A stretch of 64,000 bases of DNA from Eubacterium sp. (GTDB lineage Bacteria; Bacillota; Clostridia; Lachnospirales; Lachnospiraceae), in contig JAFUVQ010000037.1 of NCBI GenBank assembly GCA_017477505.1, positions 17,412 through 81,411 on the forward strand. The letters run 5' to 3'. Every line of letters begins with the position of its first letter. The first letter of the stretch is position 1. Made by a program: the position numbers and the translations under genes. Under the pieces are notes generated by a model that was not told the origin of the DNA, made no database searches, and worked only from the letters and a program-made list of their open reading frames with translations. Shown here piece after piece: positions 31,817 to 63,453 of the stretch.

Positions 31817-34564
31817 ATGAATAAAAGAAAGAAACTGTGGCTTACAGCATTTACTGCAATGTCCATGGGTATGCTGATTCTTGCACCTAAAGGAGAGGCG
31901 TTTGCGGCAGAGGATGCTACACCATCCGATGCGGATATTATTTATGAGAATATTGCAGCTGAGCCGGAAAACGGAAACAATCTGACTGAAAATGATATGA
32001 CCGGAAATGATGATACTGAAGTTATTGAAGATACCGGGGTTAATACCGGTGATATCAGTATTTTGGATCCTGAGGCTGTCGTATATGAAGAAGCGGAAGA
32101 TCTGGAGAATATAGCTGAACCCGGAAAGACTTATACAACGGTTCTTGACGGCAAGGATTATTCTGCTGTTTATGACTATTATTATTATCTGAATAAGTAT
32201 CCTGATCTTAAAACTGCTTTTGAAAATAATGAAGCAGGAGCTCTCAGGCATTTTGTTAATTTCGGTATGACAGAAGGCCGCCAGGCATCAGCGGATTTTG
32301 ATCTTAATTCATATAAGAAAGCAAACCTTGACCTTAGAAATGCTTTCGGTATCGACAATGCAAAATACTATATGCATTATATTAATTCAGGTAAGAGAGA
32401 AGGAAGGGCTGCGGTCAATGTCACTGAGAGAGTCGGTTCGGTAACGGCTTATGAGGGTGTTGATTATAAGCCTGTATATAACTTTAATTATTACAGATCA
32501 AAGTATCCTGATATGAAGACGGTGTTTGGTGATGATGATATTCTGACCATACGCCATTTTGTCTTGTTTGGAATGAAGGAAGGAAGACAGGGCAAGGTTA
32601 CATTTGATGTTCAGTCTTATGCATATGCAAATGCAGATCTCAGAAAAGCATATAAAAATGATTATACGAAGTATTATAACCATTATATAAAGTTCGGTTA
32701 TGCCGAAGGAAGAACCAGCCGGGATGTTACTGAGATGCAGAATGCTGCGGTAGTTAAGGATAAGGTCGATTACAGCGCTGTATATGACTATAACTACTAT
32801 ACGAAGAAATATCCGACTGTTAAGGATAAGTACGGTCTTGACGACGAGAAGGTTCTGGATGATTTCGTAAATGAAGGAATTAAGCTCGGAAAGCAGGGTT
32901 CGGAAGATTTTGAGGTTGAATCCTACATTTTCGCCCATGCGGACATCCGCCATATATATAAGAATGCCGTTGAGAAGTATTATTATCATTTTATTAACTT
33001 CGGTAAGAAGGAAGGCAGAGTTGCAACAGGCGTAGACGAGATGAAGAATTATGCGACTGTATATGACGGCATCGATTATGCACCGGTTTATGATTTCAAC
33101 TATTATGCGGAAAGATATCCTGATACGGCTGAGAAGTACGGTTACGATGATGAAGGACTTCTTGATTACTTTGTAAATAAAGGAATATATGCTCTGGACC
33201 GTGCAAGTGAGAATTTCGATCCTTATTCATATGCATTTGCGAATCCTGAACTCAGGGCATATTACAAGAATAATCTTTATAAGTATTATCTCCATTATAT
33301 AAAGATAGGTTCCAAGAAGGGCTATACAGCAAAAGATGTTGGCCATGTCGTAGATGAAGTAAAGGTATATGACGGCGTTAATTACAAAGACGTTTATGAC
33401 TATATCTATTATGTAAGTAAGTATCCGCAGGTTTGGAGACAGTTTTACTTTGATGATGCCGGAGTACTTGAGTATTTCGTAACAACAGGCGTTAAGAAAT
33501 ATCATCAGGCATATGACAGATTCGATATTCTTTCTTATGCTTATGCTCATGCGGACCTCCGCCGTGCATATAAAAATGATATTCTTAAATATGTAACTCA
33601 TTATATCAATTACGGTAAAGCCGAAGGCAGAATTGCAACAGGCGTGACCGATATGAAAAATTGTACTACTGTTATCAATGACGTAGATTACAAGGATGTT
33701 TACGATTATTCCTACTATACAAAGAAGTATGCTGATGTAAAGCAGGCTTACGGCTTTGATGATCAGGCTGTTCTTCTTCATTTCGTTACCTTTGGTATGA
33801 AAGAAGGAAGAAGAGGCTGTAAGGAATTCGATGTTTATTCATATGCTTATGCAAATGTAGACTTAAGACGTGCCTACAAGGATAATATAGCATCATATTA
33901 TACTCATTATATGAGAGACGGCAAGCGTGAAGGCAGAAAAGCCTGGGGTTACTCATATATGAGAAACTTTGAGACAAAATATAAAGATATAGATTATGCG
34001 GCAGTTTATGATTTCAATTATTATTGGAAGAATAATGCACAAGCAAGAAAGGTGACAACCTTTGATGACCTCGCTCTTTTGGAGTATTTTGCAAAGGTTG
34101 ATGTTTATACTGAGACTTATGCCATAGAATGGGATGGTACGCTCAAGGATTATATGGCTACAAAGAACTTCCTTGCAGCATCCACTACAACGGCTCTCAG
34201 AGAAGCGGTAGTAGAGTATGCTATGCAGTTCCTCGGAAAGCCATACGTTCACGGCGGTCACGGTCCTGACGTATTTGACTGTTCAGGATTCACATATTAT
34301 GTATATAAGCATTTTGGTATCTATGCATCACCAAGCTCTGATGAGCAGCAGACACAGGGCGTTGAGATAATAGGAATTGAGAACGCTCTTCCGGGTGACA
34401 TCATATGCAGAGGAACTTATGATCAGGACAGAGCCGGTCATGTGGGACTCTATATAGGAAACGGAAAGATGATACATGCGGCTGACGAGTCGACAGGCGT
34501 TGTTATCGGAGATGCAATAGTAGCCAGCAGAAAGCTCTTTACAATAAGACGTCTGATATACTGA
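31817..34564 (+). CDS. Secreted NlpC/P60 hydrolase with 13 tyrosine-rich repeat units
   Basis: A 915-residue exported protein. Signal peptide to about residue 30 (AFAAED), acidic linker to about 110, then 13 repeat units. Six A-B pairs of about 102 residues are followed by one unpaired A unit. A units follow DYxxVYDxxYYxxKYPD ... HFVNFGMKEGRQG; B units follow FDVxSYxxAxxDLRxAY ... HYIxFGxxEGR, with a linker of about 14 residues. The C-terminal 140 residues are an NlpC/P60 peptidase: GKPYVHGGHG, catalytic Cys in DVFDCSGF, His in AGHVGLYIGNG, and MIHAAD. NlpC/P60 enzymes usually cut peptidoglycan stem peptides. It has its own promoter and very strong ribosome site, and lies at the head of the polysaccharide genes. 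Confidence 0.9.
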   Translation: MNKRKKLWLTAFTAMSMGMLILAPKGEAFAAEDATPSDADIIYENIAAEPENGNNLTENDMTGNDDTEVIEDTGVNTGDISILDPEAVVYEEAEDLENIAEPGKTYTTVLDGKDYSAVYDYYYYLNKYPDLKTAFENNEAGALRHFVNFGMTEGRQASADFDLNSYKKANLDLRNAFGIDNAKYYMHYINSGKREGRAAVNVTERVGSVTAYEGVDYKPVYNFNYYRSKYPDMKTVFGDDDILTIRHFVLFGMKEGRQGKVTFDVQSYAYANADLRKAYKNDYTKYYNHYIKFGYAEGRTSRDVTEMQNAAVVKDKVDYSAVYDYNYYTKKYPTVKDKYGLDDEKVLDDFVNEGIKLGKQGSEDFEVESYIFAHADIRHIYKNAVEKYYYHFINFGKKEGRVATGVDEMKNYATVYDGIDYAPVYDFNYYAERYPDTAEKYGYDDEGLLDYFVNKGIYALDRASENFDPYSYAFANPELRAYYKNNLYKYYLHYIKIGSKKGYTAKDVGHVVDEVKVYDGVNYKDVYDYIYYVSKYPQVWRQFYFDDAGVLEYFVTTGVKKYHQAYDRFDILSYAYAHADLRRAYKNDILKYVTHYINYGKAEGRIATGVTDMKNCTTVINDVDYKDVYDYSYYTKKYADVKQAYGFDDQAVLLHFVTFGMKEGRRGCKEFDVYSYAYANVDLRRAYKDNIASYYTHYMRDGKREGRKAWGYSYMRNFETKYKDIDYAAVYDFNYYWKNNAQARKVTTFDDLALLEYFAKVDVYTETYAIEWDGTLKDYMATKNFLAASTTTALREAVVEYAMQFLGKPYVHGGHGPDVFDCSGFTYYVYKHFGIYASPSSDEQQTQGVEIIGIENALPGDIICRGTYDQDRAGHVGLYIGNGKMIHAADESTGVVIGDAIVASRKLFTIRRLIY

Positions 34565-34627
34565 TAAAACTTATGACTAAGTGCAGGCTTAAATGATATG
34601 ACATATTCGGATTGAAAGGAATCAGAA

Positions 34628-35791
34628 ATGGAAGTAAAAGAAAGAATCATAGACCTCAAGCAGTTCTTCCTCTATCTCTGGGAGAATGTGATAGCTATCC
34701 TCATAGTAGCAGCCATTTTCGGATGCATATTCATGGGATACAGTTATAAGTCACAGAAGAAGGATATAGCAGGTGGAGGAACCACTATTCATACTATAAT
34801 CAAGGCAAATCATGATGCTTATTTCAGCCTGAATACTGCCAAATATACTGACGCGGTCATTCCGGACGGAGTATATAACTCATATGCAAGGGTTTATGTT
34901 GATTTTAACTTTGATAAGATAGAAGGCAGTGATGAGAAGGATTTCTCTCAGCTTATGAATAAGCTTGCCAAGGATGTATATCTTATAGTTGTAAGTGATG
35001 AGACCATGGAGGAAATCATAAATGAGCTTAACCTCAGAAGTTATCCGGATATGGCAAATATCACAGCCAGAGACCTTTCATTTATGGTTAATAAGAATCT
35101 TGAAGGTGTTCATATCGTAAATATAATTGTTTCCGATGTGAATCCCGAAAGAGCAGAGCTTATAGAGAATGCGGTTGTCAATAAGTTCGTTCAGAAGGCA
35201 GGAGATTATCTCGGTATAGATGAGATAAGAGTAATGGATAATGCGTCAAAGCCTTCGGGAAGTGCAGCGGCAGCCAGAAGAGTCAGCAGAAAGACCATGG
35301 TCAAATTCGGTATCCTCGGCGGATTCGCTGGAATAATCGTGGTTGCACTTATACTGCTGGTTGTCTTCCTTGCAAAGGATTCAGTAAGAACTGAAATGGA
35401 TCTGATGTTTGCAGGCACAAGAGGATTTGGTGCGATTCCGAGAAAGAATCGTGAAGAGGCATATAAGAAGGTTGCTTATTCAATAATGATGGATGATTCG
35501 GTAAACAAAGTAGTTGTTGCCGCGGCAGATAAGAAGACTGATACAAGTGAGCTTGCTGAAAAGCTGGCAGCTGCACTTAAGGATGCAAAATCTGACAAGC
35601 AGGTTATTCAGGCTGAAAATGTAGAGAAGAGTGCGGATGCTCTTTCAAAACTTATGAATGCCGATTCCATAATACTTGTTGCAAGCTACGGCAAGACAGG
35701 TATGAAGAAGCTTCTTGATGCAAAGAGAACAGTTCAGCCGGCAGGAGACAAGCTTCTCGGAGTAATTATGACTGGAGTGAGATATATATGA
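34628..35791 (+). CDS. Wzz/YveK-type chain-length regulator with degenerate kinase-like tail
   Basis: A 387-residue membrane protein. Helices at about 18-37 and 222-248 flank an extracytoplasmic domain, the plan of polysaccharide co-polymerases that control chain length. Instead of ending after the second helix, it has about 135 more cytoplasmic residues arranged like a bacterial tyrosine kinase/ParA fold: NKVVVAAADKKTDTSELAEK, LAAALKDAKSDKQVIQAE, ADSIILVASYGKTGMKKLL, LLGVIMTGVRYI. The Walker A lysine motif and a tyrosine cluster are absent, so it should not be a kinase. AAAGGAATC precedes the ATG. The stop overlaps the DUF4422 start (ATGA). No separate kinase gene is in the window. Confidence 0.85.
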   Translation: MEVKERIIDLKQFFLYLWENVIAILIVAAIFGCIFMGYSYKSQKKDIAGGGTTIHTIIKANHDAYFSLNTAKYTDAVIPDGVYNSYARVYVDFNFDKIEGSDEKDFSQLMNKLAKDVYLIVVSDETMEEIINELNLRSYPDMANITARDLSFMVNKNLEGVHIVNIIVSDVNPERAELIENAVVNKFVQKAGDYLGIDEIRVMDNASKPSGSAAAARRVSRKTMVKFGILGGFAGIIVVALILLVVFLAKDSVRTEMDLMFAGTRGFGAIPRKNREEAYKKVAYSIMMDDSVNKVVVAAADKKTDTSELAEKLAAALKDAKSDKQVIQAENVEKSADALSKLMNADSIILVASYGKTGMKKLLDAKRTVQPAGDKLLGVIMTGVRYI

Positions 35792-36708
35792 TTTATACTG
35801 ATCCTGACTACTCAAGAAAAGCAAAGGTATGGGTAGTAGTTGCGACTCATAAGAAATATCCTATGCCCAAGGATAAGATGTATATACCGCTCCATGTAGG
35901 GGCCGAGGGTAAGAAGGATGAAAATGGAATGCCTCTTGATCTTGGCTTTCAGACTGATAATACGGGAGACAATATCAGTTCGATGAATGATCAGTTCTGT
36001 GAGCTTACAGGTCTTTACTGGGCCTGGAAGAATCTGAAGAGTGATTATCTCGGACTTGTACATTACAGAAGGCATTTTAAAGGACTTTCCCCAAAGGCTT
36101 CAGGAAAGAAGAAAAACGGAAATACAGATACAGAAGAATACAAAGATGCAAATAATGCCATAGATATGGATAGTTTCGACAGAGTTCTTAAATATAAAGA
36201 ACTGAGACCGCTTCTTGATAAATATAAGATTTTTGTTCCGAAGAAGAGGCATTATTATATCGAAACACTTCAGCAGCATTATGCCCATAATCACAGGATT
36301 ATTGAGCTTGATACAGCAAGGGATATAATCAAAGAGAAGTATCCTGAGTATATGCCTGCTTATGATATAGCTATCAATCGTACCTGGGGATATATGTTCA
36401 ATATGATGATCATGAGAAGAGACCTGATGGAGGAATATCTGACATGGCTCTTTGATATTCTTTTTGAATTGAAGTCCAGGCTTGAATCAGAAGACGGTCT
36501 TTCTTCATTTGAGAATCGTTATCCGGGAAGGGTAAGTGAGAGAATATTCAATGTATGGCTTACCTACCAGATGCAGGAAGGGAAAATCAGGGAAGATGAT
36601 ATCTGTGAGATTCCTTTCATGTATATGGAGAAGATAAATATACTGAATAAAGGAATAACATTCCTTAAAGCCAAATTTATAGGTAAGAAGCCTGAGAAAA
36701 GCTTCTGA
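35788..36708 (+). CDS. DUF4422 glycosyltransferase-like protein
   Basis: A 306-residue cytoplasmic protein with the DUF4422 signature: VVVATHKKYPMP at the start, YIPLHVGAEGK, DNTGDNISSMNDQFCELTGL, YWAWKN and GLVHYRRHF. It continues with the HYIETLQQHY-like region and a Tyr/Arg-rich C-terminus. DUF4422 proteins are frequent in capsule and exopolysaccharide clusters and are generally regarded as glycosyltransferases; donor and acceptor are unknown. It is translationally coupled to the chain-length protein by a four-base overlap. Confidence 0.88.
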   Translation: MIYTDPDYSRKAKVWVVVATHKKYPMPKDKMYIPLHVGAEGKKDENGMPLDLGFQTDNTGDNISSMNDQFCELTGLYWAWKNLKSDYLGLVHYRRHFKGLSPKASGKKKNGNTDTEEYKDANNAIDMDSFDRVLKYKELRPLLDKYKIFVPKKRHYYIETLQQHYAHNHRIIELDTARDIIKEKYPEYMPAYDIAINRTWGYMFNMMIMRRDLMEEYLTWLFDILFELKSRLESEDGLSSFENRYPGRVSERIFNVWLTYQMQEGKIREDDICEIPFMYMEKINILNKGITFLKAKFIGKKPEKSF

Positions 36709-36728
36709 TAAAAACTGAGGAGACAGCG

Positions 36729-37544
36729 ATGGCAGACAAAGAGCTGAGAGAGATACAGCTTAAAGAGCTGGATATATTAAAGGATTTTATACGTGTATGT
36801 AAGGAGTATAATCTCCGTTATTATGCAGTAGGCGGAACACTTCTGGGTGCTGTCAGACATGGAGGCTTCATTCCATGGGATGATGATATGGATGTGGCTA
36901 TGCCGAGAAAGGATTATGACCTTTTCCTTGAAAAGTACAGACATATGCTGTCGCCTCGCTATGATGTAGAGCATTTTACAATACAGGAGGATGTATATTT
37001 CTATCCTCTTAAGCTGAGAGATCTTAGGACAAGGGTGAAGGAACAGCGACTGTCGGAGGATAGTGTGAGCTATCTCAGCATAGACGTATTCCCTATAGAT
37101 GGTTATCCGGACAAGCGACCGAAGCAGTTTTTCTATAAGCTCGGATATTATTATTACAAGATGCGTATAGGTTTCTGTAATATTGACAGACTCAGGTCAA
37201 ATGTAAAAAGACCTGCTCATGAGAAACTCCTTATTGCATTCGCAAAGGCCTTCAGGCTGAATGAGAAGCTGAACTTAAAGAAGGAACAGGAGAAGTTCGA
37301 TAAGGTATTTAAGAGTACCAAGGGCAAAAAATGTATGCTGGTAGGAGATATCTCCGGCAGATACGGTTTCAGGGAATTTGTTCCAAGGGGATATTTCGGA
37401 AAACCGAGACAGAGAAGATTCGAGGACATTATGATAAATGTTCCGAATAAATATGACAGATATCTTACAAGAATTTACGGTGACTATATGGAACTGCCGC
37501 CTGAATCTGAAAGACAGGCAGGGCATATAGAGATAGTGGAGTGA
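36729..37544 (+). CDS. LicD family phosphotransferase
   Basis: A 271-residue cytoplasmic enzyme with the LicD nucleotidyltransferase-like core: YAVGGTLLGAVRHGGFIPW, then the metal-binding DDDMDVAMPRKDYD. Members attach phosphocholine or other phospho-alcohol groups, or sugar-phosphates, to surface glycans. The ribosome site is GAGGAG ahead of the ATG. No choline uptake (licABC-like) genes are in the window, so the transferred group may be something other than choline; the CDP-glycerol and LTA-synthase-like enzymes nearby make a glycerol-phosphate theme possible. A GT2 gene follows one base later. Confidence 0.9.
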   Translation: MADKELREIQLKELDILKDFIRVCKEYNLRYYAVGGTLLGAVRHGGFIPWDDDMDVAMPRKDYDLFLEKYRHMLSPRYDVEHFTIQEDVYFYPLKLRDLRTRVKEQRLSEDSVSYLSIDVFPIDGYPDKRPKQFFYKLGYYYYKMRIGFCNIDRLRSNVKRPAHEKLLIAFAKAFRLNEKLNLKKEQEKFDKVFKSTKGKKCMLVGDISGRYGFREFVPRGYFGKPRQRRFEDIMINVPNKYDRYLTRIYGDYMELPPESERQAGHIEIVE

Positions 37545-37545
37545 T

Positions 37546-38580
37546 ATGGTAAAGGTAAGCATTATAATTCCATTTTATAATGGAGCAAAAGACAGGCTTT
37601 TTGAATGCGTTGACAGTATAGAAAGAGCCACTGCGGTTTCTCATGAAATCTTACTTGTAAATGATGGAAGTGATCCTGAGTATGATGAGATACTGGGTGA
37701 AATCGTTAAGCAGTACCCTGTAGTCAGGATTATTTCACAGGAGAACGGAGGAGTTTCTTCGGCCAGAAATCTGGGAGTGTCAAACGCTGAAGGAGAGTAT
37801 GTTGCTTTTGTGGATTCGGATGATACGATACTTAACAGCTTTGTTGATAAGGCATATCGTATAGCAAAGAAGCTGGATGCCGATTTCCTGATAGGAAAGC
37901 TTTACAGAGGTTCTGATATCTCGGGACTGGAGTCCGGAAGCGGTAAAGTAGTAAGGATAGAAGATAAGCGTGACCTTATGTCACATCTTATAGACTATGG
38001 CACCTTGTATCATTTCAGAGATAAGACCTATGTGGGACGAGGCTGCGTCTCGAGACTGATAAAAAGGGAACTTGCCGCCGATACACCTTTTGATACAGAT
38101 CTTAAGGTGGGTGAGGATATACTCTGGAACATGCAGCTCATTGAGAAATCCGAGAAGATATATCTTACCAACAGACTTTGGTATTTTTATCATGAAAATG
38201 CAGAGTCTGTTTCAAATGCGGTTAATCGTGAGACAGCCGATAATTATTATAAGTGTTTGAGAAGGATTATGGACAGCGTTGACATGACTGATCCGAGAGT
38301 CTACAGGGCTGTTGTGGGATTATTCATAGAGGCCTTGAAGACCATTCACAGACTTGGACTGTATAAGGGAACTCCGGACATAGACAGGCAGGAGATAAAA
38401 GAACGAAGGACTGCGGTATATGAAGAATTTGAGTTTGAGGAAATATATGGTTCGGTGCTGCTGAATACGCTTTCAGCAGGAGACAGGGCACAGTTACTCC
38501 TGTTCCAGGGAAAGAAGCTGTTCAATATGTATGACGGTTTCAGAGATTTAAGAAAAGTAGTGAGGAAAGTGCATAAATGA
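37546..38580 (+). CDS. Family 2 glycosyltransferase
   Basis: A 344-residue cytoplasmic transferase with a GT-A fold. The N-terminus VKVSIIIPFYNGAKDRLFEC begins the nucleotide-sugar fold, and LLVNDGSDPEYDEI and ISQENGGVSSARNLGV follow. The metal-binding FVDSDDTI is near residue 90. The acceptor-side region KVGEDILWNMQLIEKS is typical. C-terminal helices carry no membrane segment. The stop overlaps the next GT2 start by four bases, so several transferases are made together. Sugar specificity cannot be read. Confidence 0.92.
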   Translation: MVKVSIIIPFYNGAKDRLFECVDSIERATAVSHEILLVNDGSDPEYDEILGEIVKQYPVVRIISQENGGVSSARNLGVSNAEGEYVAFVDSDDTILNSFVDKAYRIAKKLDADFLIGKLYRGSDISGLESGSGKVVRIEDKRDLMSHLIDYGTLYHFRDKTYVGRGCVSRLIKRELAADTPFDTDLKVGEDILWNMQLIEKSEKIYLTNRLWYFYHENAESVSNAVNRETADNYYKCLRRIMDSVDMTDPRVYRAVVGLFIEALKTIHRLGLYKGTPDIDRQEIKERRTAVYEEFEFEEIYGSVLLNTLSAGDRAQLLLFQGKKLFNMYDGFRDLRKVVRKVHK

Positions 38581-39506
38581 TTCTTGCTTCATTTAATATA
38601 CTTCATTATAAAAACTATGAAGAGACCATGAGATGTGTGGATTCGCTTTTAAAGCTCCGCGGTATTGATAAGTGTCTTATACTTATTTATGACAATGGTT
38701 CCGGTGACGGAAGCGATGACATTTTATGGAATAAATATAAGAAATATAAGAATATCAAGGTTATCGTCAATACTGAAGCAGACGGCTTCAGCCGAGGTAA
38801 CAATAAGGCTTATGCCATAGCAAAGAAGTATGATCCGCGCTTTATAATAGCTGCGAATAATGACATAGTTATAAAACAGAAGGATTTTCTGTATCGTCTG
38901 CTTCAGGTAAGCAAGAGGGACAGATATTATATCATAGGCCCTGATATATATGCTCCTACGGTGGCGGAACATCAGTCCCCTCTCTATGCTGAATATCCGA
39001 CAGCGGCTCATGTCGAAGCCGATATGGCTGTGGTAAGAGGCAGGATTGAGGATATAGATGAGGGCGTGAAATGGGAGACCAACCGTCTGAAGAAGAACAG
39101 GATCAAAAAATATTTTCCCAAGCAGGCTATAGAGGCAGTAAGATATTTCACCGGCAATAAAAAGACGGAAGACTGGAAGAAAGAAATTGTAAATCCTGTC
39201 TTTTCCGGTTCATTTCTGATAGTGACAAATCATTTTATCAGGGAAAATGATATCCTGTTCCAGCCCGAGACCAGATTTTATTTTGAAGAACTGCTTCTTG
39301 CCGGAAGGTGCAGGGAAAAAGGTTATAAGACCCTGTATACTCCGAAATTGAAAATATATCATATGCATGGGGCATCGACTCTTAAAGCATATGATGATAT
39401 AAGGAATTATCTGGAATTCAAATATACCAATATGCTTGATTCTTATGAGATATATAAGAAGGAAGAAGAGAGAAGAAATGATAGCAGTTCTGATGGCAAC
39501 ATATAA
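38577..39506 (+). CDS. Family 2 glycosyltransferase (rhamnosyltransferase-like)
   Basis: A 309-residue GT2 enzyme. SFNILHYKNYEETMRCVDSL opens the fold, with IYDNGSGDGSDDI, ADGFSRGNNKAYAIA and the metal site IAANNDIV. The NND-type site and the FSRGNNKAY stretch resemble rhamnosyl- and galactofuranosyl-type transferases of O-antigen clusters. The ATG overlaps the previous stop by four bases. Its own 3' end overlaps the next gene by 29 bases. Confidence 0.88.
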   Translation: MILASFNILHYKNYEETMRCVDSLLKLRGIDKCLILIYDNGSGDGSDDILWNKYKKYKNIKVIVNTEADGFSRGNNKAYAIAKKYDPRFIIAANNDIVIKQKDFLYRLLQVSKRDRYYIIGPDIYAPTVAEHQSPLYAEYPTAAHVEADMAVVRGRIEDIDEGVKWETNRLKKNRIKKYFPKQAIEAVRYFTGNKKTEDWKKEIVNPVFSGSFLIVTNHFIRENDILFQPETRFYFEELLLAGRCREKGYKTLYTPKLKIYHMHGASTLKAYDDIRNYLEFKYTNMLDSYEIYKKEEERRNDSSSDGNI

Positions 39507-40416
39507 CGGAGAGACATATCTGAGGGAGCAGCTGGACTCTATTCTGAGTCAGACCCTGCAGGATATAAAAATATATATACATGATGACGGCTCAAAAGAT
39601 GCAACCGTAGATATTGTAAAAGAATACATGGCTGCATTTCCAAACAGGATTTTTCTTGTGGAAGGTGAGCCGACGGGATCCGGAAGAATGAATTTCCTGT
39701 ATCTTCTGGGACAAGTTGAAGCTGATTATTATATGTTTTCCGATCAGGATGATGTATGGCTTCCTGAAAAGGCGGAAAAATGTATGGAAGCTCTTTCCCG
39801 TATGGAAAAAGAAAATGGTGATATACCGCTTCTTACTTTCTCGGACATGAAGGTTGTAAACGAGGATCTGTCGGTTATTGATAATTCTTTCATGTATTAC
39901 AATCAGCTTGATCCCTATCATCTTACATTTAACAGACTGGTGGTTCAGAATACTGCCGCAGGCTGTACCATGCTCTTTAACCGCAGACTCAGGGATGAGG
40001 CTGTCAGGTATAAGAAAGCTGAGCATATTGAACATATTCTGGCTCATGACTGGTGGATGATCCTTACGGCATCTGCTCTTGGAGAGGTAAGATATGTGGA
40101 CGAACCTCTTTCACTTTACAGGCAGCACAGTGGTAATCTTGTAGGTGCTGTAAAGGAAACAGGAATTAAGAAAAAACTTAAGCTGGTTTACTGGCTCGTC
40201 ACATTTACACATGTGAAACTCACAAAAGAAAGAATTGAGCACTTTGTCCTTCAGGGACAGGAACTGGCGGTTCTTCCTCTTAAAGGTGAGCCTGCCAAGA
40301 TAGTCAAGGGACTGCGTAAGTTTTATGATATGAACAAGATAGAAAGAGTGAGATTCGTAAGACGTTTCAAACTCTTCAGGAATAAGAGAAATCTCTGGCA
40401 GGAGATATGCCTGTAG
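39478..40416 (+). CDS. Family 2 glycosyltransferase
   Basis: A 312-residue GT2 enzyme. The start is placed at ATG 39478, giving the canonical opening MIAVLMATYNGETYLREQLD behind GGAAGAAGAGAG; an in-frame ATG at 39436 would add a basic 14-residue leader. DDGSKDATVDIV and the metal site FSDQDDVWLPEK are clear, as is AHDWWMILTASALG, which is typical of rhamnosyltransferase-like RfbF/RgpB relatives. The stop TAG lies inside the first copy of a 16-base tandem repeat. Confidence 0.9.
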   Translation: MIAVLMATYNGETYLREQLDSILSQTLQDIKIYIHDDGSKDATVDIVKEYMAAFPNRIFLVEGEPTGSGRMNFLYLLGQVEADYYMFSDQDDVWLPEKAEKCMEALSRMEKENGDIPLLTFSDMKVVNEDLSVIDNSFMYYNQLDPYHLTFNRLVVQNTAAGCTMLFNRRLRDEAVRYKKAEHIEHILAHDWWMILTASALGEVRYVDEPLSLYRQHSGNLVGAVKETGIKKKLKLVYWLVTFTHVKLTKERIEHFVLQGQELAVLPLKGEPAKIVKGLRKFYDMNKIERVRFVRRFKLFRNKRNLWQEICL

Positions 40417-40457
40417 CAGAGAGCACCTGTAGCAGAGAGCACCTGTGGCAGAGAGGA
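40411..40457 (+). repeat. 16-base tandem repeat at a gene junction
   Basis: CTGTAGCAGAGAGCAC at 40411-40426 and 40427-40442, then a degenerate third copy at 40443-40457. The first copy contains the stop codon of the upstream glycosyltransferase. The unit length is not a multiple of three. Confidence 0.85.
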
Positions 40458-40494
40458 TGCCCGGTGACATATCCGGATACGAGGAGAACAAAGG

Positions 40495-41520: not shown

Positions 41521-41522
41521 TA

Positions 41523-45476: not shown

Positions 45477-45488
45477 CCCGGGATATGA

Positions 45489-45534
45489 TGAATTATAGAT
45501 TGACCGGTGAATTATGGATTGACCGATGAATTAT
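45489..45534 (+). repeat. 19-base tandem repeat in a gene junction
   Basis: TGAATTATAGATTGACCGG (45489-45507) is followed by a copy with two changes (45508-45526) and a truncated third copy TGAATTAT (45527-45534), ending just before the ribosome site of the next gene. Confidence 0.85.
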
Positions 45535-45544
45535 TGAGGAACAG

Positions 45545-46750: not shown

Positions 46751-46777
46751 AACATAATTCATTTGTGATATCCTTTG

Positions 46778-47973: not shown

Positions 47974-47975
47974 AT

Positions 47976-48877: not shown

Positions 48878-48905
48878 GTATTCGAAGCATGAGTGATTAA
48901 TATAT

Positions 48906-50390: not shown

Positions 50391-50426
50391 AGTAAGATAC
50401 TAATAATAGATTGGAGGATTTTGGAA

Positions 50427-51296: not shown

Positions 51297-51314
51297 TAGA
51301 AATGAGTTTTTAAT

Positions 51315-53015: not shown

Positions 53016-53054
53016 ACCAATGAGTAAAAAGCTCACACTGTTCTGGTGATTATA

Positions 53055-53486
53055 ATGATAAAAAGTATAAAAGCACTGTATGAAAAATACAGAGAGATAG
53101 TTAATTATGTGATCGCAGGAGGTCTTACTACTCTTGTATCACTGGGGATATACTGGGGACTTACACTGACGGTTTTTGACCCCGGAAATCCTCTGCTTCT
53201 TCAGGCTGCAAATGTAGCTTCATGGATAGGAGCTGTCATATTTGCTTACTTCATAAACAGAAGCTTTGTCTTCAGAAGTGAGAACAGGAATATGGTCAAG
53301 GAATTTACTTCATTTGTCCTTGGAAGGGTCGGTACGCTTCTTATGGACATGGGCTCAATGTTTGTGATGGTAACATGGCTTAAGTGGAATGACAGGCTTG
53401 CAAAAATAATTGTACAGTTTATAGTTCTTATAGGAAATTATGTAATAAGCAAGTTTTTGGTATTCAGAAAGAAGAAAGATGCATGA
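53055..53486 (+). CDS. GtrA family membrane protein
   Basis: A 143-residue protein with four membrane helices, opening MIKSIKALYEKYREIVNYVI and containing FAYFINRSFVFRS and GNYVISKFLVFRKKKDA at the C-terminus, as in GtrA proteins. These are thought to move polyprenyl-linked sugars across the membrane or to assist O-antigen glucosylation. The ATG at 53055 is chosen; a GTG at 53046 is possible. The stop overlaps the GT4 start by four bases. Confidence 0.9.
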   Translation: MIKSIKALYEKYREIVNYVIAGGLTTLVSLGIYWGLTLTVFDPGNPLLLQAANVASWIGAVIFAYFINRSFVFRSENRNMVKEFTSFVLGRVGTLLMDMGSMFVMVTWLKWNDRLAKIIVQFIVLIGNYVISKFLVFRKKKDA

Positions 53487-54595: not shown

Positions 54596-54598
54596 GAT

Positions 54599-55132
54599 AT
54601 GAAGCTGAGAGAATTAAAGATTGAAGATGCGCCGCTTATGCTAGAGTGGATGCATGATGAAGAAGTTGTGAGAGACCTTAAAAAGGATTTCAGGAGCATG
54701 ACTCTTGATGACTGTGTAAGGTTTATAGAGATGAGCAGGATAGCTTCAGGACTCATTAAGAGTAATATAGGAGTCAATATCGGCGGGGCCATGCATCTTG
54801 CCATAGCAGGTGACGGTGACAAATATATGGGAACCGTAAGCCTTAAAGAAATTGACAGGAAGAAAGGCTGTGCGGAATTTGGCATAACCCTCAGGCGTGA
54901 AGCCATGGGTAAGGGCTTCGCTTCCTATGCGATGCAGGAAATTCTTAAGCTGGGTACTGAGGAAATGGGGCTTAATCTCATTTACTGGTGCGTAGATCCG
55001 GAGAATGAGAGAGCCATAAGATTTTATGAAAAAAATGAGTATAAAAGAATAGATTGTGATGAACTTGATGTAAAACTGGAGTATACTGATAAAGAGAAAG
55101 AAAGATATATCTGGTATGCCTACAGGAAGTAA
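54599..55132 (+). CDS. GNAT N-acetyltransferase
   Basis: A 177-residue acetyl-CoA-dependent transferase. KLRELKIEDAPLMLEWMHDE opens the fold. The acetyl-CoA-binding segment reads ITLRREAMGKGFASYAMQEI (about 98-117), and DPENERAIRFYEKNEYKRID closes it. The sequence resembles RimJ/RimL-type or sugar-amine acetyltransferases. It lies directly before the sugar aminotransferase gene, so it may acetylate the new 3-amino group of the dTDP-sugar, a step done by hexapeptide-repeat enzymes (FdtC/QdtC) elsewhere. That role is inferred from position only. Confidence 0.85.
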   Translation: MKLRELKIEDAPLMLEWMHDEEVVRDLKKDFRSMTLDDCVRFIEMSRIASGLIKSNIGVNIGGAMHLAIAGDGDKYMGTVSLKEIDRKKGCAEFGITLRREAMGKGFASYAMQEILKLGTEEMGLNLIYWCVDPENERAIRFYEKNEYKRIDCDELDVKLEYTDKEKERYIWYAYRK

Positions 55133-55168
55133 TTTCATGTAGCACTGCTAAAAGACAGAGGATAAAAT

Positions 55169-56287
55169 ATGGACATAAGAATTCCATTTGTATCATTTGA
55201 TAAGATGCATGGTGAGATAAGGGAAGACCTGGACAAGGCCTATGCCCGTACCATGGATAGAGAATGGTTCATACAGGGAAAGGAATGCGAAGAGTTTGAG
55301 AAGGAGTTTGCAGCATACTGTGGAGCAAAGTATGCGGTAGGATGCGGCAACGGACTGGATGCTCTGTATCTGATACTTCGTGCATATGATATAGGTTCCG
55401 GAGACGAGGTTATAGTTCCTTCAAATACATTTATAGCAACGGCACTTGCCGTTACATATACCGGTGCCAAAGTGGTTTTTGTGGAACCTGAGGAAGGATA
55501 TTATGATATAGATCCTTCACTTATAGAAGAGAAGATCACCGGAAAGACAAAAGCCATAATGGCGGTTCATCTTTACGGACAGCCGGCCAGAATGGATGAG
55601 ATAAAGAGCATTGCGGATCGTTACGGGCTTAAAGTGATAGAGGACGCGGCTCAGGCTCACGGTGCATTGTATAAGGGCGTGAAGACCGGTAATCTTGCAG
55701 ATGCGGCAGGCTTCTCACTATATCCGGGAAAGAATCTCGGGGCACTTGGTGATGGAGGAATCGTAGTAAGTAATGACAGGGAGCTGATCGATAAGATAAG
55801 GGCTCTAGCTAATTATGGTTCCGATTATAAATATCATCACATTTATCAGGGTAATAATTCAAGACTTGATGAGATGCAGGCGGCTTTTCTAAGAGTAAAG
55901 CTTCCAAAACTTGATAAATGGAATCAGGAAAGACGAAGGATAGCAGACAGGTATCGTAAAGAGATAGATAATCCTCTGATAGGTCTGCCTGAAGTTTATC
56001 CTGATGTGGAGCATGTATATCATATATTTGCAATAACCGCTCCGGAAGGAAAGCGGGATGAACTTGCTGACTACCTTAAAGCTGCAGGAATAGGAACCAA
56101 TATGCATTATCCTACACCTATGCATCTTCAGGGAGCATATATGGATATGGGTCTTCCGAAGGGAAGTCTTCCCATAGCCGAAAAAATATCAGAGACAGAG
56201 CTCAGCATACCTATGTTCTATGGGCTCTCTGATGAAGAAGTAACATATGTAATTGCAACTGTTAACCAATGGAAACCCCAGAATTAG
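55169..56287 (+). CDS. DegT/DnrJ/EryC1 sugar aminotransferase (FdtB/QdtB-like)
   Basis: A 372-residue PLP-dependent enzyme that aminates a nucleotide keto-sugar. [68 protein letters not shown] and the PLP-lysine segment [15 protein letters not shown] are visible. [20 protein letters not shown] and [10 protein letters not shown] match the dTDP-3-keto-6-deoxyhexose 3-aminotransferase group. With the FdtA-like isomerase at 63474 it would make dTDP-Fuc3N or dTDP-Qui3N. AGAGGA precedes the ATG. Confidence 0.92.
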
Positions 56288-56307
56288 AGAACAGGATGGT
56301 AGAAAAC

Positions 56308-58644
56308 ATGAGAAAAAAGGGATTTTTAAGAAGAGCTGCGCTCACTGCCGGTATTGCCGCGCTGGTCGCCGGGGGGATGCTGATTCCGAAGGCTGATGCA
56401 TTTGCTGCAGAAGATACCGCCACGGTTACGGATGCTGTCCCGGATAGTGTTTCAGAGGACAAAGATGATACTCCATACGTTTCTGAAACCGATGAAGGAA
56501 AGAACAGTGAAGAGAAGAACAGTGAAGAGAAGAACAGTGATGCTGTTCCGGCAGAGGATACTGATCAGGATTTGAATGAAGGTTCTGATACGGTACTCGA
56601 TGAGCCGGATGACAAGGGCGTAACGGTTCTGAACGGTGTTGACTACAGTGCAGTCTATGACTGGCATTATTACACGTCAAAATATCCGGACATCAAGAAA
56701 GTATACGGAGATGACCAGACGAGAGCACTGTGGCACTTTGTTAATTTCGGTATGAAGGAGAAAAGACAGGGATGCGCTTCATTTGATGTAAATTCATACA
56801 TCAAAGCCTACCCGGATCTGCGTTCTGCATACAGAAATAATTATGAGAGATACTATGAACACTATATCAGATATGGTTACAATGAGAACAGAGTATCTCA
56901 GGGTATAGAGGAGATGATCAATCCTGTATATACCTATAAAGGAACTGATTACAGCAAAGTGTATTCTTACAAGGAGTACATAAAGTACAATGCGGCTGTA
57001 AGTGATAAGCTCGGTGTTGATAATGATTACGGACTTATCGAAGACTTCGTTCAGAACGGAATGAAGGCTAAGAGAAGAGGAAATGAGAACTTTGATGTTC
57101 AGTCCTATATCTATCAGTATCCGGACCTCAGAAATGCATACAGGAATAATTATGAGAAGTTCTATGAGCATTATATGAAATTCGGATTCGATGAAGGAAG
57201 AATCTCAAGCGGTGTGACTGAACTTCAGAATCCTGTAACATTTTATAATAACTTCGAGTATAAGACTGTATATGATCCTGCATACTATGCAGCCATGAAT
57301 AAGGACATAAGAAAAGTAATCGGTGCCGATAATGATTACGGTCTCATCGAGCATTTTGTAAAGAACGGAATCAATGAGAAGAGACCATCATCGGAAAACT
57401 TTAACCTTAGATCATATATAAATGCAAATATTGACCTGAGAAAAGCATATGGCAGTAACTGGAGAGCTTATCTTGAGCACTATGTTAAGTATGGCAGAAA
57501 GGAAGGCCGTACAGCAGTAGGTGTTCCGGAGATAGTAAATCCGCGTGTAAAGTATAAGGGCGTTGATTACAGTAAGGTATATGATTTCAAGTTCTATATA
57601 GCACATAATCCTGAACTTAAATATCTTTATGACTGTAATGATATAGGTGCCATTCAGCACTTTGTTGAGCAGGGAATACCTGCAAGGAAGCAGGCTAAGG
57701 AAACATTTGATGTAAGATCCTATATCAATGCGCATAAGGACCTTCGTCAGGCCTTTGGTGGTGATATAGCTGCATATGTAAAGCATTATATGGAATATGG
57801 CCAGAAGGAAGGCCGTATGGCAACCGGAATGCCACGTATGCTCAATTTTGCTACAGATCATATACTTGGAGACTATGCAGGAATATATGATTTCAATGAT
57901 TACACAGATAAGTATTCCGACATGATCAGAACTTACGGTTTCGATGATGTTGCTATTCTGAATCATTTCGTAAGATTCGGTATCAAGGAAGGCAGAACAG
58001 CTAAGGCTTCATATGACAGTGCGCTTTACAATGAGAAGCAGAAGCTTTCAAAGGATCTCTACAAGGAACAGTACAGAAATGGCTGGCTTAAGTACAGCAA
58101 CAGATGGTTCAAATATGATAACTACGGAACTATCATAAGAGCCCAGAAAGATGCACCTACACTGGTTACTCTTTCCGGATATTATGTAAGTCCGATGAAG
58201 ACAGGTAATCTTAATTCCCGTGAAGAGAGGATTGAGGCTATGATAGAGAGAGCCTATGAATATATGGGAACTACCTATCAGATATGTAAGTCTACACAGC
58301 CTGGAAATGCGGTTGACTGCAGCGGACTTGTTATGCAGTGCCTCTATGCGGCAGGCTTTGATCCGTATCCGGCAACACCTGCACATCATGCACTTCCTGA
58401 AAATGAATATGATTCACGTACACTTTATAATCAGACACCGATGCAGCATGTAAGCTACAGTAATATCAAGAGGGGTGACCTTATATATTATAAGAGCGGA
58501 AGAGGAAATATCATCATCCATGTTGCTATCTATCTCGGAAACGGAAGAGTTATAGAGGCCTGGCCTCCGGCTGTTACAGACAGCTATGGAGTTGCTTCAT
58601 GGCCACATCCATACATTTACGGAGTGACAAGACCATTCCCGTAA
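56308..58644 (+). CDS. Secreted NlpC/P60 hydrolase with nine tyrosine-rich repeat units
   Basis: A 778-residue exported protein (start uncertain; ATGs at 56269, 56296 and 56308 share the frame; I favour 56308, MRKKGFLRRAALTAG). The signal peptide ends near AFAAED. An acidic linker with NSEEK duplications follows. Nine repeat units come next: four A-B pairs and a final unpaired A unit, as in the protein at 31817. Then comes a single NGWLKYSNRWFKYDNYGTI segment resembling a choline/cell-wall-binding repeat. The C-terminal NlpC/P60 domain has AVDCSGLVMQ (Cys), HVAIYLGNGRVIEAW (His) and a Pro/Trp-rich end. It overlaps or abuts the aminotransferase stop, tying it to the polysaccharide genes. Confidence 0.88.
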   Translation: MRKKGFLRRAALTAGIAALVAGGMLIPKADAFAAEDTATVTDAVPDSVSEDKDDTPYVSETDEGKNSEEKNSEEKNSDAVPAEDTDQDLNEGSDTVLDEPDDKGVTVLNGVDYSAVYDWHYYTSKYPDIKKVYGDDQTRALWHFVNFGMKEKRQGCASFDVNSYIKAYPDLRSAYRNNYERYYEHYIRYGYNENRVSQGIEEMINPVYTYKGTDYSKVYSYKEYIKYNAAVSDKLGVDNDYGLIEDFVQNGMKAKRRGNENFDVQSYIYQYPDLRNAYRNNYEKFYEHYMKFGFDEGRISSGVTELQNPVTFYNNFEYKTVYDPAYYAAMNKDIRKVIGADNDYGLIEHFVKNGINEKRPSSENFNLRSYINANIDLRKAYGSNWRAYLEHYVKYGRKEGRTAVGVPEIVNPRVKYKGVDYSKVYDFKFYIAHNPELKYLYDCNDIGAIQHFVEQGIPARKQAKETFDVRSYINAHKDLRQAFGGDIAAYVKHYMEYGQKEGRMATGMPRMLNFATDHILGDYAGIYDFNDYTDKYSDMIRTYGFDDVAILNHFVRFGIKEGRTAKASYDSALYNEKQKLSKDLYKEQYRNGWLKYSNRWFKYDNYGTIIRAQKDAPTLVTLSGYYVSPMKTGNLNSREERIEAMIERAYEYMGTTYQICKSTQPGNAVDCSGLVMQCLYAAGFDPYPATPAHHALPENEYDSRTLYNQTPMQHVSYSNIKRGDLIYYKSGRGNIIIHVAIYLGNGRVIEAWPPAVTDSYGVASWPHPYIYGVTRPFP
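56500..56541 (+). repeat. 15-base coding tandem repeat
   Basis: AAGAACAGTGAAGAG at 56500-56514 and 56515-56529 plus a partial third copy. It encodes NSEEK-type repeats in the acidic linker of the NlpC/P60 protein; the length is a multiple of three, so copy-number change would keep the frame. Confidence 0.8.
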
Positions 58645-60072: not shown

Positions 60073-62052
60073 ATGAAGCAGAAAGTTGGATTTAAACGGT
60101 TTATCACATTTTTCTTTGCATTATTAATAGCGGTATCGATTTTGAATATACCCGTAATTCCGGTAAAGGCAGCGGCACCGAAGCTGGTTGCCTTTACCTT
60201 TGATGACGGACCTTATAAGACTACGGGACCACTCCTGGACGGACTCGCAGCAAGAGGTGCCAAAGCCACATTCTTTATGGTTGGACAGAGCGGTGCCTGC
60301 GGTGTGGCCGGAAAGCAGGAGATAATCAATCGTATGGTTAGAGAAGGTCATCAGGTTGCGAATCATACCTGGAGTCATGTTGCTCCTTTTGCCAGGCTTT
60401 CCGCATCTGAGATGAGATCGGAGATTGACAGTGTTTATCCTTATCTGAAGACTGCCATGGGCGGTGATTTCAAGCAGTTGGTCAGGATACCCGGCGGTGA
60501 TATGTCCAGAAACACATCGGCAACGGTAGCTTATCCTATGATCAGATTTGACTTTAATCCTCAGGATTATATATATATGAATGTGGATAAGACATATCAG
60601 GCTATCATTTCAGGAGTGCAGGACGGAAGCATTGTATGCCTTCATGACAGAATCAAGGAGTCATGTGATGCGGCACTCCGTGCTATAGATTATCTTCAGG
60701 CCAGAGGATATGAATGTGTTACGATATCAGAACTTTTCAGAAGAAGAGGTATAGATCTCGAAGCATATCATACATATAATTCCGCTTATAATAACGGAAT
60801 CAATCTTCCGGCGTACAAAAAACCGGTTCTCACTAAGTCGGTTTCAAAATTTGGCAAGGTTACTATTTCGGTAAGTACGCCCGATAAAGGAATCACTCTC
60901 CGTTATACTACAGACGGAAGCATTCCCAATCTTTCCAGCAGGGCATATCAGAGCCCTATAAATGTGGAAGGAGCACTTCACCTCAGGGTTGCCGGCTTTG
61001 ATAAGTACGGAACCAGGACTGAAATAGCTGAATACTCGGTTGATGGGGCACCCAGCGAAGCTGTCTTTAATTCCGATTATTATGCATCTGTTTATCCGGA
61101 TATGAAGCAGCATTTCGGTTCTGACTCAACTAAGCTTTACGATCATTATATGAGATGCGGTCTTTCGGAGGGACGTGCGGGAAGCCCTACATTTAACGTT
61201 ACATTTTATAAAAAATCATATACTGACCTGAATAAGGCATATGGAAATGACAATGCCAGATATCTTGAGCATTTCATAAATTTCGGTATGAAGGAAGGCA
61301 GACAGGGCTCATCAATCTTTGATGTCTACTCATACAAGAATTATCATCAGGATCTTCGTCTGGCCTACGGAAATGATCTTCCTAAGTATTATGAGCATTA
61401 TAACAAATACGGATATGCCGAGGGACGTGTGGCTACCGGCGCAAAAACCGTAATGAACGCGGTTACAAAGCAGGGCGGTATGGATTACAGTCTTGTATAT
61501 GATTATTATTACTATACAAGCAGGTATCCTGATGTTAAGAGAACATATGGAAATGATGATATAGCCGCGCTCCGCCATTTCATAAACTTCGGTATGAAAG
61601 AGGGCAGACAGGGTAAGGCTTCATTTGATGTATGGTCATATAAGAATGCTCATCCTGATATAAGAGCGGCATATGGAAATGATATGAAGAGCTATTATAT
61701 CCATTATATTAAATATGGTTACAGAGAGAACAGAGTCTGCACTAACCGTCCTAAGGTTGTAGGTGCGACAACGGTTTATAACGGCGTGGATTATAAGTCT
61801 GTTTACAGCTATTATTATTACACAAATAAATATCCTGATATTCTTAAGGCATACGGAAATGATGATGTGGCAGTTCTCCGTCATTTTGTAAACTTTGGTA
61901 TGAAGGAAGAAAGACAGGGTTCTGCAGAGTTTAATCCTAAGCTTTATAAGTCAAGATACGACGACCTCAGAAGTGCATATGGTGATAATAATTCTAAATA
62001 CTATTATCATTACATAAATGCAGGTAAGGCCGAAGGCAGAAGCGGAAGATAA
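60073..62052 (+). CDS. Secreted polysaccharide deacetylase with chitobiase-C-like domain and seven repeat units
   Basis: A 659-residue exported protein. Signal peptide to about residue 35 (VKAAAP). NodB deacetylase domain at about 38-230: AFTFDDGPYKT (catalytic Asp and metal Asp), NHTWSHV (metal His pair), RIPGGD and VCLHDRI. A short beta-sandwich follows (about 255-335) with LRYTTDGSIPNLSS, like the chitobiase/hexosaminidase C-terminal domain. Seven tyrosine-rich repeat units fill the rest, ending in NAGKAEGRSGR. The enzyme should remove N- or O-acetyl groups from wall or capsule sugars. The ribosome site is AAAGGAG. Unlike the NlpC/P60 proteins, repeats here are C-terminal to the catalytic domain. 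Confidence 0.92.
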   Translation: MKQKVGFKRFITFFFALLIAVSILNIPVIPVKAAAPKLVAFTFDDGPYKTTGPLLDGLAARGAKATFFMVGQSGACGVAGKQEIINRMVREGHQVANHTWSHVAPFARLSASEMRSEIDSVYPYLKTAMGGDFKQLVRIPGGDMSRNTSATVAYPMIRFDFNPQDYIYMNVDKTYQAIISGVQDGSIVCLHDRIKESCDAALRAIDYLQARGYECVTISELFRRRGIDLEAYHTYNSAYNNGINLPAYKKPVLTKSVSKFGKVTISVSTPDKGITLRYTTDGSIPNLSSRAYQSPINVEGALHLRVAGFDKYGTRTEIAEYSVDGAPSEAVFNSDYYASVYPDMKQHFGSDSTKLYDHYMRCGLSEGRAGSPTFNVTFYKKSYTDLNKAYGNDNARYLEHFINFGMKEGRQGSSIFDVYSYKNYHQDLRLAYGNDLPKYYEHYNKYGYAEGRVATGAKTVMNAVTKQGGMDYSLVYDYYYYTSRYPDVKRTYGNDDIAALRHFINFGMKEGRQGKASFDVWSYKNAHPDIRAAYGNDMKSYYIHYIKYGYRENRVCTNRPKVVGATTVYNGVDYKSVYSYYYYTNKYPDILKAYGNDDVAVLRHFVNFGMKEERQGSAEFNPKLYKSRYDDLRSAYGDNNSKYYYHYINAGKAEGRSGR

Positions 62053-62112
62053 TACATAATATACTTTCGTAATGAAGACCGGACAAAAGTCATTTCAGTG
62101 AAGGGCAAGGTC

Positions 62113-63453
62113 ATGAAAGCAGCAAAACGGATAATAAGCTTTATATTATGTATAGCGGTTTTTCTCGGTACCGTGATGTTGCCTTCTGATGATACTGTTA
62201 TGGCTGCCGGTGTCAGGTATATATTCATAGGTGATTCAAGATTCTGCGGAATGGCCAATGCCTTTGGAGTTCAGGACTCCCTGACAAAGAATAACGGCGG
62301 CAGGGGAACCGAGGTTATCAGAATCAGTAATGATATACACTGGTGTTCCATGGTGGGTACTTTTATCAGCGAGTTTCAAAGCCGCGTCGATTCCGTACTC
62401 AGTGCTTATAAAACCGGAAGCGCTGTCATCATATATGAGCTGGGAGCCAATGATACCAAAAACATCAGTAAGGATATAGCTTATTGTAATTCTCTTGCTG
62501 ATAAGGGATGGACGGTATATTACTGCGACCTTCTTCCTATAAATGACAGCGGCACTGGGACCATCAAAGAAAAGGATATACTTTCTGCCAACAGCAGGAT
62601 ATATTCCGGCGAAGGAAAGTATAAGGTTATCAGGTTTCATGACAAGGCAGATTCCCGTAAAACCGACAGTCTGGGATATCACTATGATGATGCGACCTAT
62701 AAAGCATGGTTCGATGTCATTATGAATTCTGTTAAGGGAGATATCACTCCCGAAAAATATGCAGCTGTTTTTAATGCGGATTATTATCTTTCAAGATATG
62801 CAGATCTAAGGAAGGCATACGGGAACAACAGAGATAAAGCATTTAATCATTTTATAAATTATGGTATTAAGGAAGGACGCTGTGCCTCTCCTGCCTTTGA
62901 TGTGAACTATTATAAGAATACCTATGCGGATTTAAGGAGCGTATATGGTAATGACAATATGAAATACGTTAGTCATTTCCTTAAGTTCGGCAGTCTTGAG
63001 GGAAGGCGGGCATCGGCTCTCTTTGATGTTTATTCATATAAGAATTATCATGCGGACTTAAGGACAGCCTTCGGGAACAGTCTTCCCCGGTATTATGAGC
63101 ATTATAATAATTACGGTTACAAAGAAGGAAGAGCAGCACTTGGAGCGGCAACCGTCAGAAATGCGGTTACTGTATCCGGTACTACAGACTACAGAGCCGT
63201 ATATGATTATTACTACTATACGGAAAGGTATCCTGACATAAAGGCGGCCTACGGAAATGATGATATAGCGGTCCTTAATCATTTCATAAAATATGGAATG
63301 AAAGAGGGAAGGCAGGGAAATTCAGAGTTCAATCTCTCTAAATATAAGTCGGCTTATGCCGATCTGCGGAATGCATACGGAAATGATAATAAAGGATATT
63401 ATCTGCATTATATAAAATTCGGAAAAAGTGAAGGCAGAAATGCAACGCGATGA
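62113..63453 (+). CDS. Secreted SGNH-type hydrolase with five tyrosine-rich repeat units
   Basis: A 446-residue exported protein. The ATG at 62113 follows GAAGGGCAAGG; a GTG at 62098 is an alternative. The signal peptide ends near VMAAG. The catalytic domain (about 34-215) has the block I motif FIGDSRFCGM (nucleophile Ser), ELGANDTKN (block III-like) and a late LGYHYDDATYKAW containing the likely His. SGNH hydrolases often remove acetyl esters from glycans. Five repeat units follow in the order A, B, B, A, B, closely resembling the repeat tract of the deacetylase upstream. It overlaps or nearly touches the FdtA-like gene. Confidence 0.88.
   Translation: MKAAKRIISFILCIAVFLGTVMLPSDDTVMAAGVRYIFIGDSRFCGMANAFGVQDSLTKNNGGRGTEVIRISNDIHWCSMVGTFISEFQSRVDSVLSAYKTGSAVIIYELGANDTKNISKDIAYCNSLADKGWTVYYCDLLPINDSGTGTIKEKDILSANSRIYSGEGKYKVIRFHDKADSRKTDSLGYHYDDATYKAWFDVIMNSVKGDITPEKYAAVFNADYYLSRYADLRKAYGNNRDKAFNHFINYGIKEGRCASPAFDVNYYKNTYADLRSVYGNDNMKYVSHFLKFGSLEGRRASALFDVYSYKNYHADLRTAFGNSLPRYYEHYNNYGYKEGRAALGAATVRNAVTVSGTTDYRAVYDYYYYTERYPDIKAAYGNDDIAVLNHFIKYGMKEGRQGNSEFNLSKYKSAYADLRNAYGNDNKGYYLHYIKFGKSEGRNATR

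Follow-up and report, generated by a model that had tools for sequence, protein, structure and literature searches.

Results

A tandem repeat in four proteins of a polysaccharide locus

The DNA examined here is a 64,000-nucleotide stretch of a Eubacterium sp. genome of the family Lachnospiraceae (contig JAFUVQ010000037.1), referred to in full as the window, and the element in question is a tyrosine-rich tandem repeat carried by four proteins, all of which are encoded inside or adjoining a polysaccharide locus (Table 1). The initial annotation had counted 13, 9, 7, and 5 units in these proteins, and a profile search recovered the same + strand genes at the same coordinates with the same numbers, for a total of 34 units of 42 residues each. 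The profile from the 34-unit set scored its four source proteins at E 1e-92 to 1e-205, as compared to 0.016 for the best of 200 shuffled sequences; having been built from the scored proteins' own units, it is biased towards its sources by construction. Profile A1 omits three of the 34 units (one of the first NlpC protein and two of the second), which are degenerate or contain an insertion. Pfam confirmed the NlpC/P60 domains proposed for two of the proteins and the NodB domain of a third. The SGNH assignment of the fourth stands in part: the protein has no Pfam match at E<=1, but a GDS motif is visible by eye and a paralogue that carries the repeat aligns weakly with it (25% identity over 100 columns, E 3e-5).

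Table 1. Repeat proteins of the window and the locus around them. pLDDT, predicted local distance difference test; aa, amino acids.
Feature	Coordinates	Strand	Remarks
915-aa protein	31817..34564	+	Signal-like N-terminus, 13 units (AB x6 + A), C-terminal NlpC/P60
13-unit array of 915-aa protein	32162..34123	+	Residues 116-769
NlpC/P60 domain of 915-aa protein	34235..34507	+	PF00877, E 3.4e-21
791-aa protein	56269..58644	+	9 units (AB x4 + A), C-terminal NlpC/P60
9-unit array of 791-aa protein	56647..58002	+	Residues 127-578
NlpC/P60 domain of 791-aa protein	58252..58560	+	Pfam, E 4.7e-11
659-aa protein	60073..62052	+	NodB-type polysaccharide deacetylase, CHB_HEX_C_1/Fn3_assoc, then 7 units (BBB-AB-AB) up to C-terminus
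Polysacc_deac_1 of 659-aa protein	60175..60522	+	PF01522, E 1.6e-25
7-unit array of 659-aa protein	61057..62046	+	61489-62046 (AB-AB) modelled, pLDDT 97.1
451-aa protein	62098..63453	+	Putative SGNH hydrolase (no Pfam match to SGNH), then 5 units (xBB-AB)
5-unit array of 451-aa protein	62761..63444	+	63193-63444 (one AB dyad) modelled, pLDDT 97.3
Polysaccharide locus	28582..56287	+	Sugar-nucleotide dehydrogenase, sulfatase-family protein, LicD, five GT2, GT1/GT4-type glycosyltransferase, acyltransferase, Wzx-like flippase, nucleotidyl transferase, GtrA, GNAT, DegT aminotransferase
FdtA	63450-63884		After the gene of the 451-aa protein

Unit grammar and predicted fold

The units fall into two types, A and B, which had been described as alternating. 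This alternation is strict in both NlpC proteins, but the NodB and SGNH arrays depart from it. Unit starts in the window arrays are alternately 42 and 60 to 61 residues apart, and the dyads are therefore joined by linkers of ∼18 residues. Of the unit lengths first given, ∼42 residues for B is correct, but the ∼46 residues given for A is not, as both cores span 42 residues and the extra length of A belongs to the ∼18-residue linker ahead of its core. Identity is 35% within A, 48% within B, and 22% between the two; since identity within a class exceeds that between classes, the two types are genuine classes within a single family, which supports the earlier proposal that they are diverged duplicates. 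Units elsewhere were labelled with hidden Markov models (HMMs) built for each type from the two window NlpC proteins only, and the arrays from other Lachnospiraceae-like genomes mostly read (AB-)n. Exceptions include single-A runs in one locus (L101) and B triads in two others (L007 and L103) and in the window NodB protein. In this lineage the A-B dyad, ∼84 residues long, is the usual unit. Its invariant positions are Tyr, Phe, His, Asp, Gly, Glu, and Arg, and these residues are candidates for a role in the fold or in binding.

AlphaFold2 models of the AB-AB stretch of the NodB protein and of the single AB dyad of the SGNH protein were all-helical, each with a predicted template modelling score of 0.85. 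Each modelled unit consists of two helices of 7 residues, one residue apart, followed by a helix of 12 to 15 residues, giving six short helices per dyad. A Foldseek search of both models against the PDB revealed no relative (best E 3.9 for AB-AB and 5.5 for AB). Against predicted viral structures there were four matches at E<=0.001. High in the ranking, the proteins with names come from giant viruses (Hyperionvirus and Fadolivirus, for example) and are glycosyltransferases, an FkbM methyltransferase, and a dTDP-sugar reductase. The global template modelling scores were low, at 0.2 to 0.3, which indicates that units match rather than the whole array.

Comparison with known wall-binding modules

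Sequence searches of Pfam, NCBIfam, and the PDB gave no match to the repeats, and no established family was identified for them; current annotation therefore leaves most repeat proteins unlabelled. One likeness in kind is CW_7 (PF08230) of the Cpl-7 endolysin, whose tandem units (PMC5705596) have ∼40 residues and three helices (9, 9, and 13 residues) and occur in endolysins and cell-wall hydrolases, Lachnospiraceae included. Helices 1 and 2 of the window repeat are instead predicted to have 7 residues each and to lie one residue apart. No relation in sequence was detected, as Pfam gave no CW_7 match at E<=1 in the four window proteins and hhalign against ten CW_7 units returned a probability of 0.1. 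The CW_7 structures 4CVD and 5I8L were also absent from the Foldseek matches of the repeat models, a search that involved no direct coordinate comparison, and three helices per unit are predicted for the repeat.

Choline-binding repeats (CWB1, PF01473) are likewise aromatic-rich and tandem and retain wall enzymes, and the window locus encodes LicD, but their units are ∼20 residues long (PMC5817068) as compared to 42 residues here. The same paper describes SLH (PF00395) and CWB2 as non-covalent anchors that bind wall polysaccharides, and ChW (PF07538) as a repeat of ∼50 residues, tandem in clostridial surface proteins, whose ligand is not known; ChW differs in being built on GW motifs. Pfam found none of PF01473, SLH, CWB2, or PF07538 in the window arrays. 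By the tests run, the repeat belongs to none of these families, which makes it a new family of a functional kind already known. Phosphocholine made by LicD was considered as a ligand as well, but such a role is not supported, because LicD and the repeat show no association in the genomes sampled (42 of 63 repeat-bearing genomes vs 143 of 236 others, p 0.47). This evidence is indirect, as the gene by itself is no proof for or against choline.

Repeat proteins of the source genome and their partner domains

The profile search identified 84 units in 12 proteins at six sites of the source genome. Eight of the 12 proteins lie at five sites outside the window, and none of these five regions contains a GT2 gene. 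The module is thus not tied to one polysaccharide locus, contrary to what had been proposed. From reading of the sequences, one outside site is a cluster of four proteins (GH9, papain-like, amidase plus phage-type lysozyme, and GH25), and the others encode an M23 peptidase, a third NlpC/P60 protein, a transglutaminase, and an SGNH protein with SLH repeats. This last protein (L046:7998-9590) combines one A-B dyad with SLH repeats and an SGNH-like domain, and its two kinds of anchor may act in concert. Among the source-genome repeat proteins, family searches bore out NlpC, M23, GH25, deacetylase, and Amidase_3.

A Pfam tally of 74 repeat proteins, in which the same protein may be counted twice, was led by Amidase_3 (8), transglutaminase (8), glucosaminidase (6), GH25 (5), NlpC/P60 (5), M23 (4), polysaccharide deacetylase (4), CAP (3), and L,D-transpeptidase (3), with single or double matches that include GH9, papain-like peptidase, SLH, LysM, and methyltransferase.

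By a crude rule, a signal-like N-terminal stretch is present in all 12 source-genome repeat proteins and, among distinct start-complete open reading frames (ORFs) with the repeat, in 81 of 87, as compared to 65 of 207 control ORFs. Six lack it, namely a methyltransferase (L083/L144), an M23-LysM protein (L076), L088, and three ORFs (L113, L087, and L070) that are short, cut, or possibly mis-started. The methyltransferase (L144:8356-9819, also L083) is an S-adenosylmethionine-methyltransferase/coiled-coil protein with one dyad at its end and no signal peptide, and is probably a cytoplasmic enzyme. The repeats are therefore not mainly cytoplasmic among Lachnospiraceae-type proteins, nor is the module confined to exported proteins, because of this methyltransferase and because glycosyltransferase is the annotation of many relatives in Proteobacteria.

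Dyads in phage endolysins

Viral contigs were searched with one DNA pattern and two earlier kinds of search, which together revealed 28 distinct repeat ORFs. The DNA pattern gave 29 stretches, of which 26 contain convincing repeat ORFs, one is a doubtful match, and two contain none. Lytic domains are present in 21 of the 28 ORFs, counted as different lytic proteins from a Pfam tally and reading of the sequences, with nine of the 21 scanned singly. Over the 28 ORFs, the Pfam tally was Amidase_2 (8), glucosaminidase (5), GH25 (4), CHAP (4), phage lysozyme (3), and Amidase_3 (2). PHROGs assigned lysis families to nine of ten tested viral repeat proteins, and genes for a tape measure protein, Dit, a tail protein, and an integrase neighbor the endolysin of L137. 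Small holin-like ORFs, judged by eye and without a PHROGs match, adjoin the endolysins of L136, L137, and L140.

Located C-terminal to the lytic domain as a separate module, the dyads usually extend to one residue ahead of the stop codon, or are followed by LysM in five proteins; 20 of 26 classified ORFs read exactly AB or AB-AB. A released endolysin must locate its substrate in the wall, and the part that binds it is usually a separate C-terminal module. The Cpl-7 endolysin offers a case for comparison (PMC5705596). The place of the dyad at the C-terminus, together with this need of the endolysin to find its substrate, is the strongest argument for wall binding.

The endolysins also bear on whether the array could instead be a spacer or a protein-protein (self-assembly) module that binds no glycan. 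The arrays are long, regular, and strongly helical, and units occur in tape-measure-like proteins and in the signal-less methyltransferase, all of which would suit such a role. However, endolysins have only one or two dyads behind the lytic domain, most often ending no more than a few residues from the stop, and polar His, Glu, Arg, Asp, and Tyr residues are conserved in every dyad class, although these could be structural. We consider this explanation quite unlikely.

One further record, L162 (MT836085.1, "Bacteriophage sp.", UNVERIFIED), looks bacterial by eye, as ABC-exporter-like and glycosyltransferase-like genes adjoin its two repeat proteins, one of which also contains choline-binding-like repeats.

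Glycan genes near the repeat in other genomes

The neighborhood of repeat genes was tallied in 17 regions of other genomes, which were the best-scoring hits rather than a random draw, using 128 of 130 complete ORFs (two very long ORFs and 46 ORFs of the source genome were left out). Pfam matches among these neighbors included GT2 (18), GDP_Man_Dehyd and Epimerase (6), and nucleotidyl transferase (5), and three neighbor proteins carry ChW. Among 128 control proteins, drawn from 228 ORFs of 20 hand-picked regions in genomes of the same set, GT2 occurs at most once, being absent from the 25 commonest families in a list that reaches single matches (Fisher p 4e-5, assuming one control GT2). Counted by region, a GT2 gene is present in 10 of 17 repeat regions vs 2 of 20 controls (p 0.004); the model used for this count was iterated on the neighbor set and leans towards it, a bias from which the Pfam tally is free. 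The expected link to surface-glycan loci thus appears across genomes, but with GT2 in 10 of 17 regions elsewhere and in none of the five in the source genome, it is a tendency and not a rule.

This neighborhood, along with the position of four repeat genes in or beside the window locus, is what could be expected if the repeat were specific for the polymer made by that locus. We nevertheless regard such specificity as unlikely. Two thirds of the source-genome repeat proteins (8/12) are encoded elsewhere, although a trans-acting binder needs no linkage; the locus gene LicD does not track with the repeat; and the same repeats and dyad grammar occur in genomes and phages that are unlikely to share one and the same polymer.

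Distribution and proteobacterial relatives

Genome samples were searched with the repeat profile at a threshold of E<=1e-6. The repeat was found in 3 of 398 genomes sampled across the phylum, all of the window's own family, in 11 of 291 across the class (eight of the own family and three from two other families), and in 63 of 299 within the family. Among named relatives, Lachnospiraceae bacterium YSB2008 is the nearest, at 60% identity.

A similar Y-x-x-x-x-P-D ... H-Y-x-x-x-G-x-x-E-G-R pattern, itself uncatalogued, had been pointed out in Proteobacteria, and the two prove to be homologous. A tblastn search of plasmid records gave 86 matches at E<=1, the best at 5e-18 in Azospirillum, and a profile of 12 alphaproteobacterial units of the same 41 to 42 residues aligned with the window profile at a probability of 98.8 and E 7e-17 (hhalign), these units having come from records already found by similarity. 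All nine units in two Azospirillum proteins (L155 and L156) classify as B, a hint that B may be the older unit. The repeat-rich N-terminus of a Bradyrhizobium protein was similar to 116 plasmid records, and the annotations of 40 of these, spread over the list, were counted by hand: 24 are glycosyltransferase, GH99-like, or CDP-glycerol glycerophosphotransferase, four are methyltransferase, sulfotransferase, or DUF616, five are M10 peptidase, Ig-like, or Hint, and seven are hypothetical or unannotated. Proteobacterial partners differ from those in Lachnospiraceae and include RTX/M10, beta-helix, and glycosyltransferase proteins.

Together with the giant-virus matches, these relatives raise the tentative idea, to which we give slightly less than even odds, that the repeat belongs, as one branch, to a glycan-binding superfamily so far unrecognised. 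Helical units of ∼42 residues would be attached to enzymes of surface glycans: in Proteobacteria and giant viruses to glycosyltransferases and further sugar enzymes, in Lachnospiraceae and the phages of this family to wall hydrolases. B would be ancestral, and the A/B dyad would have arisen in the Lachnospiraceae line and be shared with phages. If the glycosyltransferase-linked relatives bind glycans too, one small fold would join the making and the binding of glycans across bacteria and viruses.

Discussion

With a probability of roughly 80%, we conclude that the repeat forms an uncatalogued family whose small, all-helical modules bind wall glycans, that arrays of dyads tether exported enzymes, and that phage endolysins use the same dyads. 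The wall-retention or glycan-binding role first suggested is thus the best reading, given the endolysin position, the partner domains, export, and the link to glycan loci. From the repeat itself, the dyad grammar, the predicted fold, the distribution, the partner domains, the endolysin position, and the glycosyltransferase neighborhood, all of which were computed, we infer binding, multivalency, and a ligand. Each dyad would offer one weak glycan-binding site, and several such sites, strung by the ∼18-residue linkers, would give strong non-covalent retention on an envelope glycan. The attached domain, whether amidase, endopeptidase, lysozyme, deacetylase, esterase, or transglutaminase, would then act on the wall where the ligand is, and in phages of these bacteria one or two dyads would serve as the endolysin's wall-binding domain.

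Several observations weigh against this conclusion. The repeat was not found in G557, the only other sampled genome of the window's genus. Only 7 of 16 source-genome domains of five wall-enzyme families sit in repeat proteins (NlpC 3/4, M23 1/5, GH25 1/3, deacetylase 1/2, Amidase_3 1/2), and partners are not all wall enzymes, because a GH9 protein, two papain-like proteins, and one methyltransferase carry the repeat. Other wall binders are already present in some of the proteins, namely SLH in one host protein (L046) and, among the 28 viral ORFs, LysM in five and PG_binding_1 in two. Seven viral ORFs contain no lytic Pfam domain; five of these are short or cut and two are tape-measure-like (L141:1273-6621, PHROGs E 4e-8, and L168:2-2419, judged by eye and unmatched in PHROGs), with two or three units, which is an unexpected site for a wall binder unless contact of the tail tip with the wall plays a part. 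The lack of GT2 near the five outside sites belongs here as well.

As for the ligand, we consider a patchily distributed wall glycopolymer somewhat likelier than peptidoglycan. Binding to peptidoglycan itself, whether to the glycan strand or a muropeptide, is a genuine if less probable possibility, as host and phage partners are largely peptidoglycan enzymes and CW_7, which is of similar size and three-helical, binds GlcNAc-MurNAc-dipeptide (PMC5705596). A secondary wall polymer would fit better with the patchy occurrence of the repeat in the family and phylum samples, although CW_7 is likewise patchy (7/60), with the presence of homologous units on annotated glycosyltransferases, which have no obvious contact with peptidoglycan, and with the enrichment of GT2 genes near repeat genes.

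Wall-binding modules determine the site of action of autolysins and the range of bacteria that an endolysin can kill, and Lachnospiraceae are major gut bacteria. If wall binding is correct, a module common to host enzymes and phage endolysins would provide a handle on the poorly known wall glycans of this family and a labelling probe, and the dyad would be a likely cause of endolysin host range.

Other genes of the window

A nucleotidyl transferase (50421-51296), a GNAT protein (54599-55132), a DegT aminotransferase (55169-56287), and FdtA together suggest a dTDP-Fuc3NAc-type sugar in the polymer of the locus. The product of 58815-60026 resembles UDP-galactopyranose mutase by eye. Directly ahead of the polysaccharide locus, at 25511-28573, lies a gene whose product combines, according to Pfam, a Reg_prop beta-propeller and a Y_Y_Y sensor with an HD domain in one fusion.

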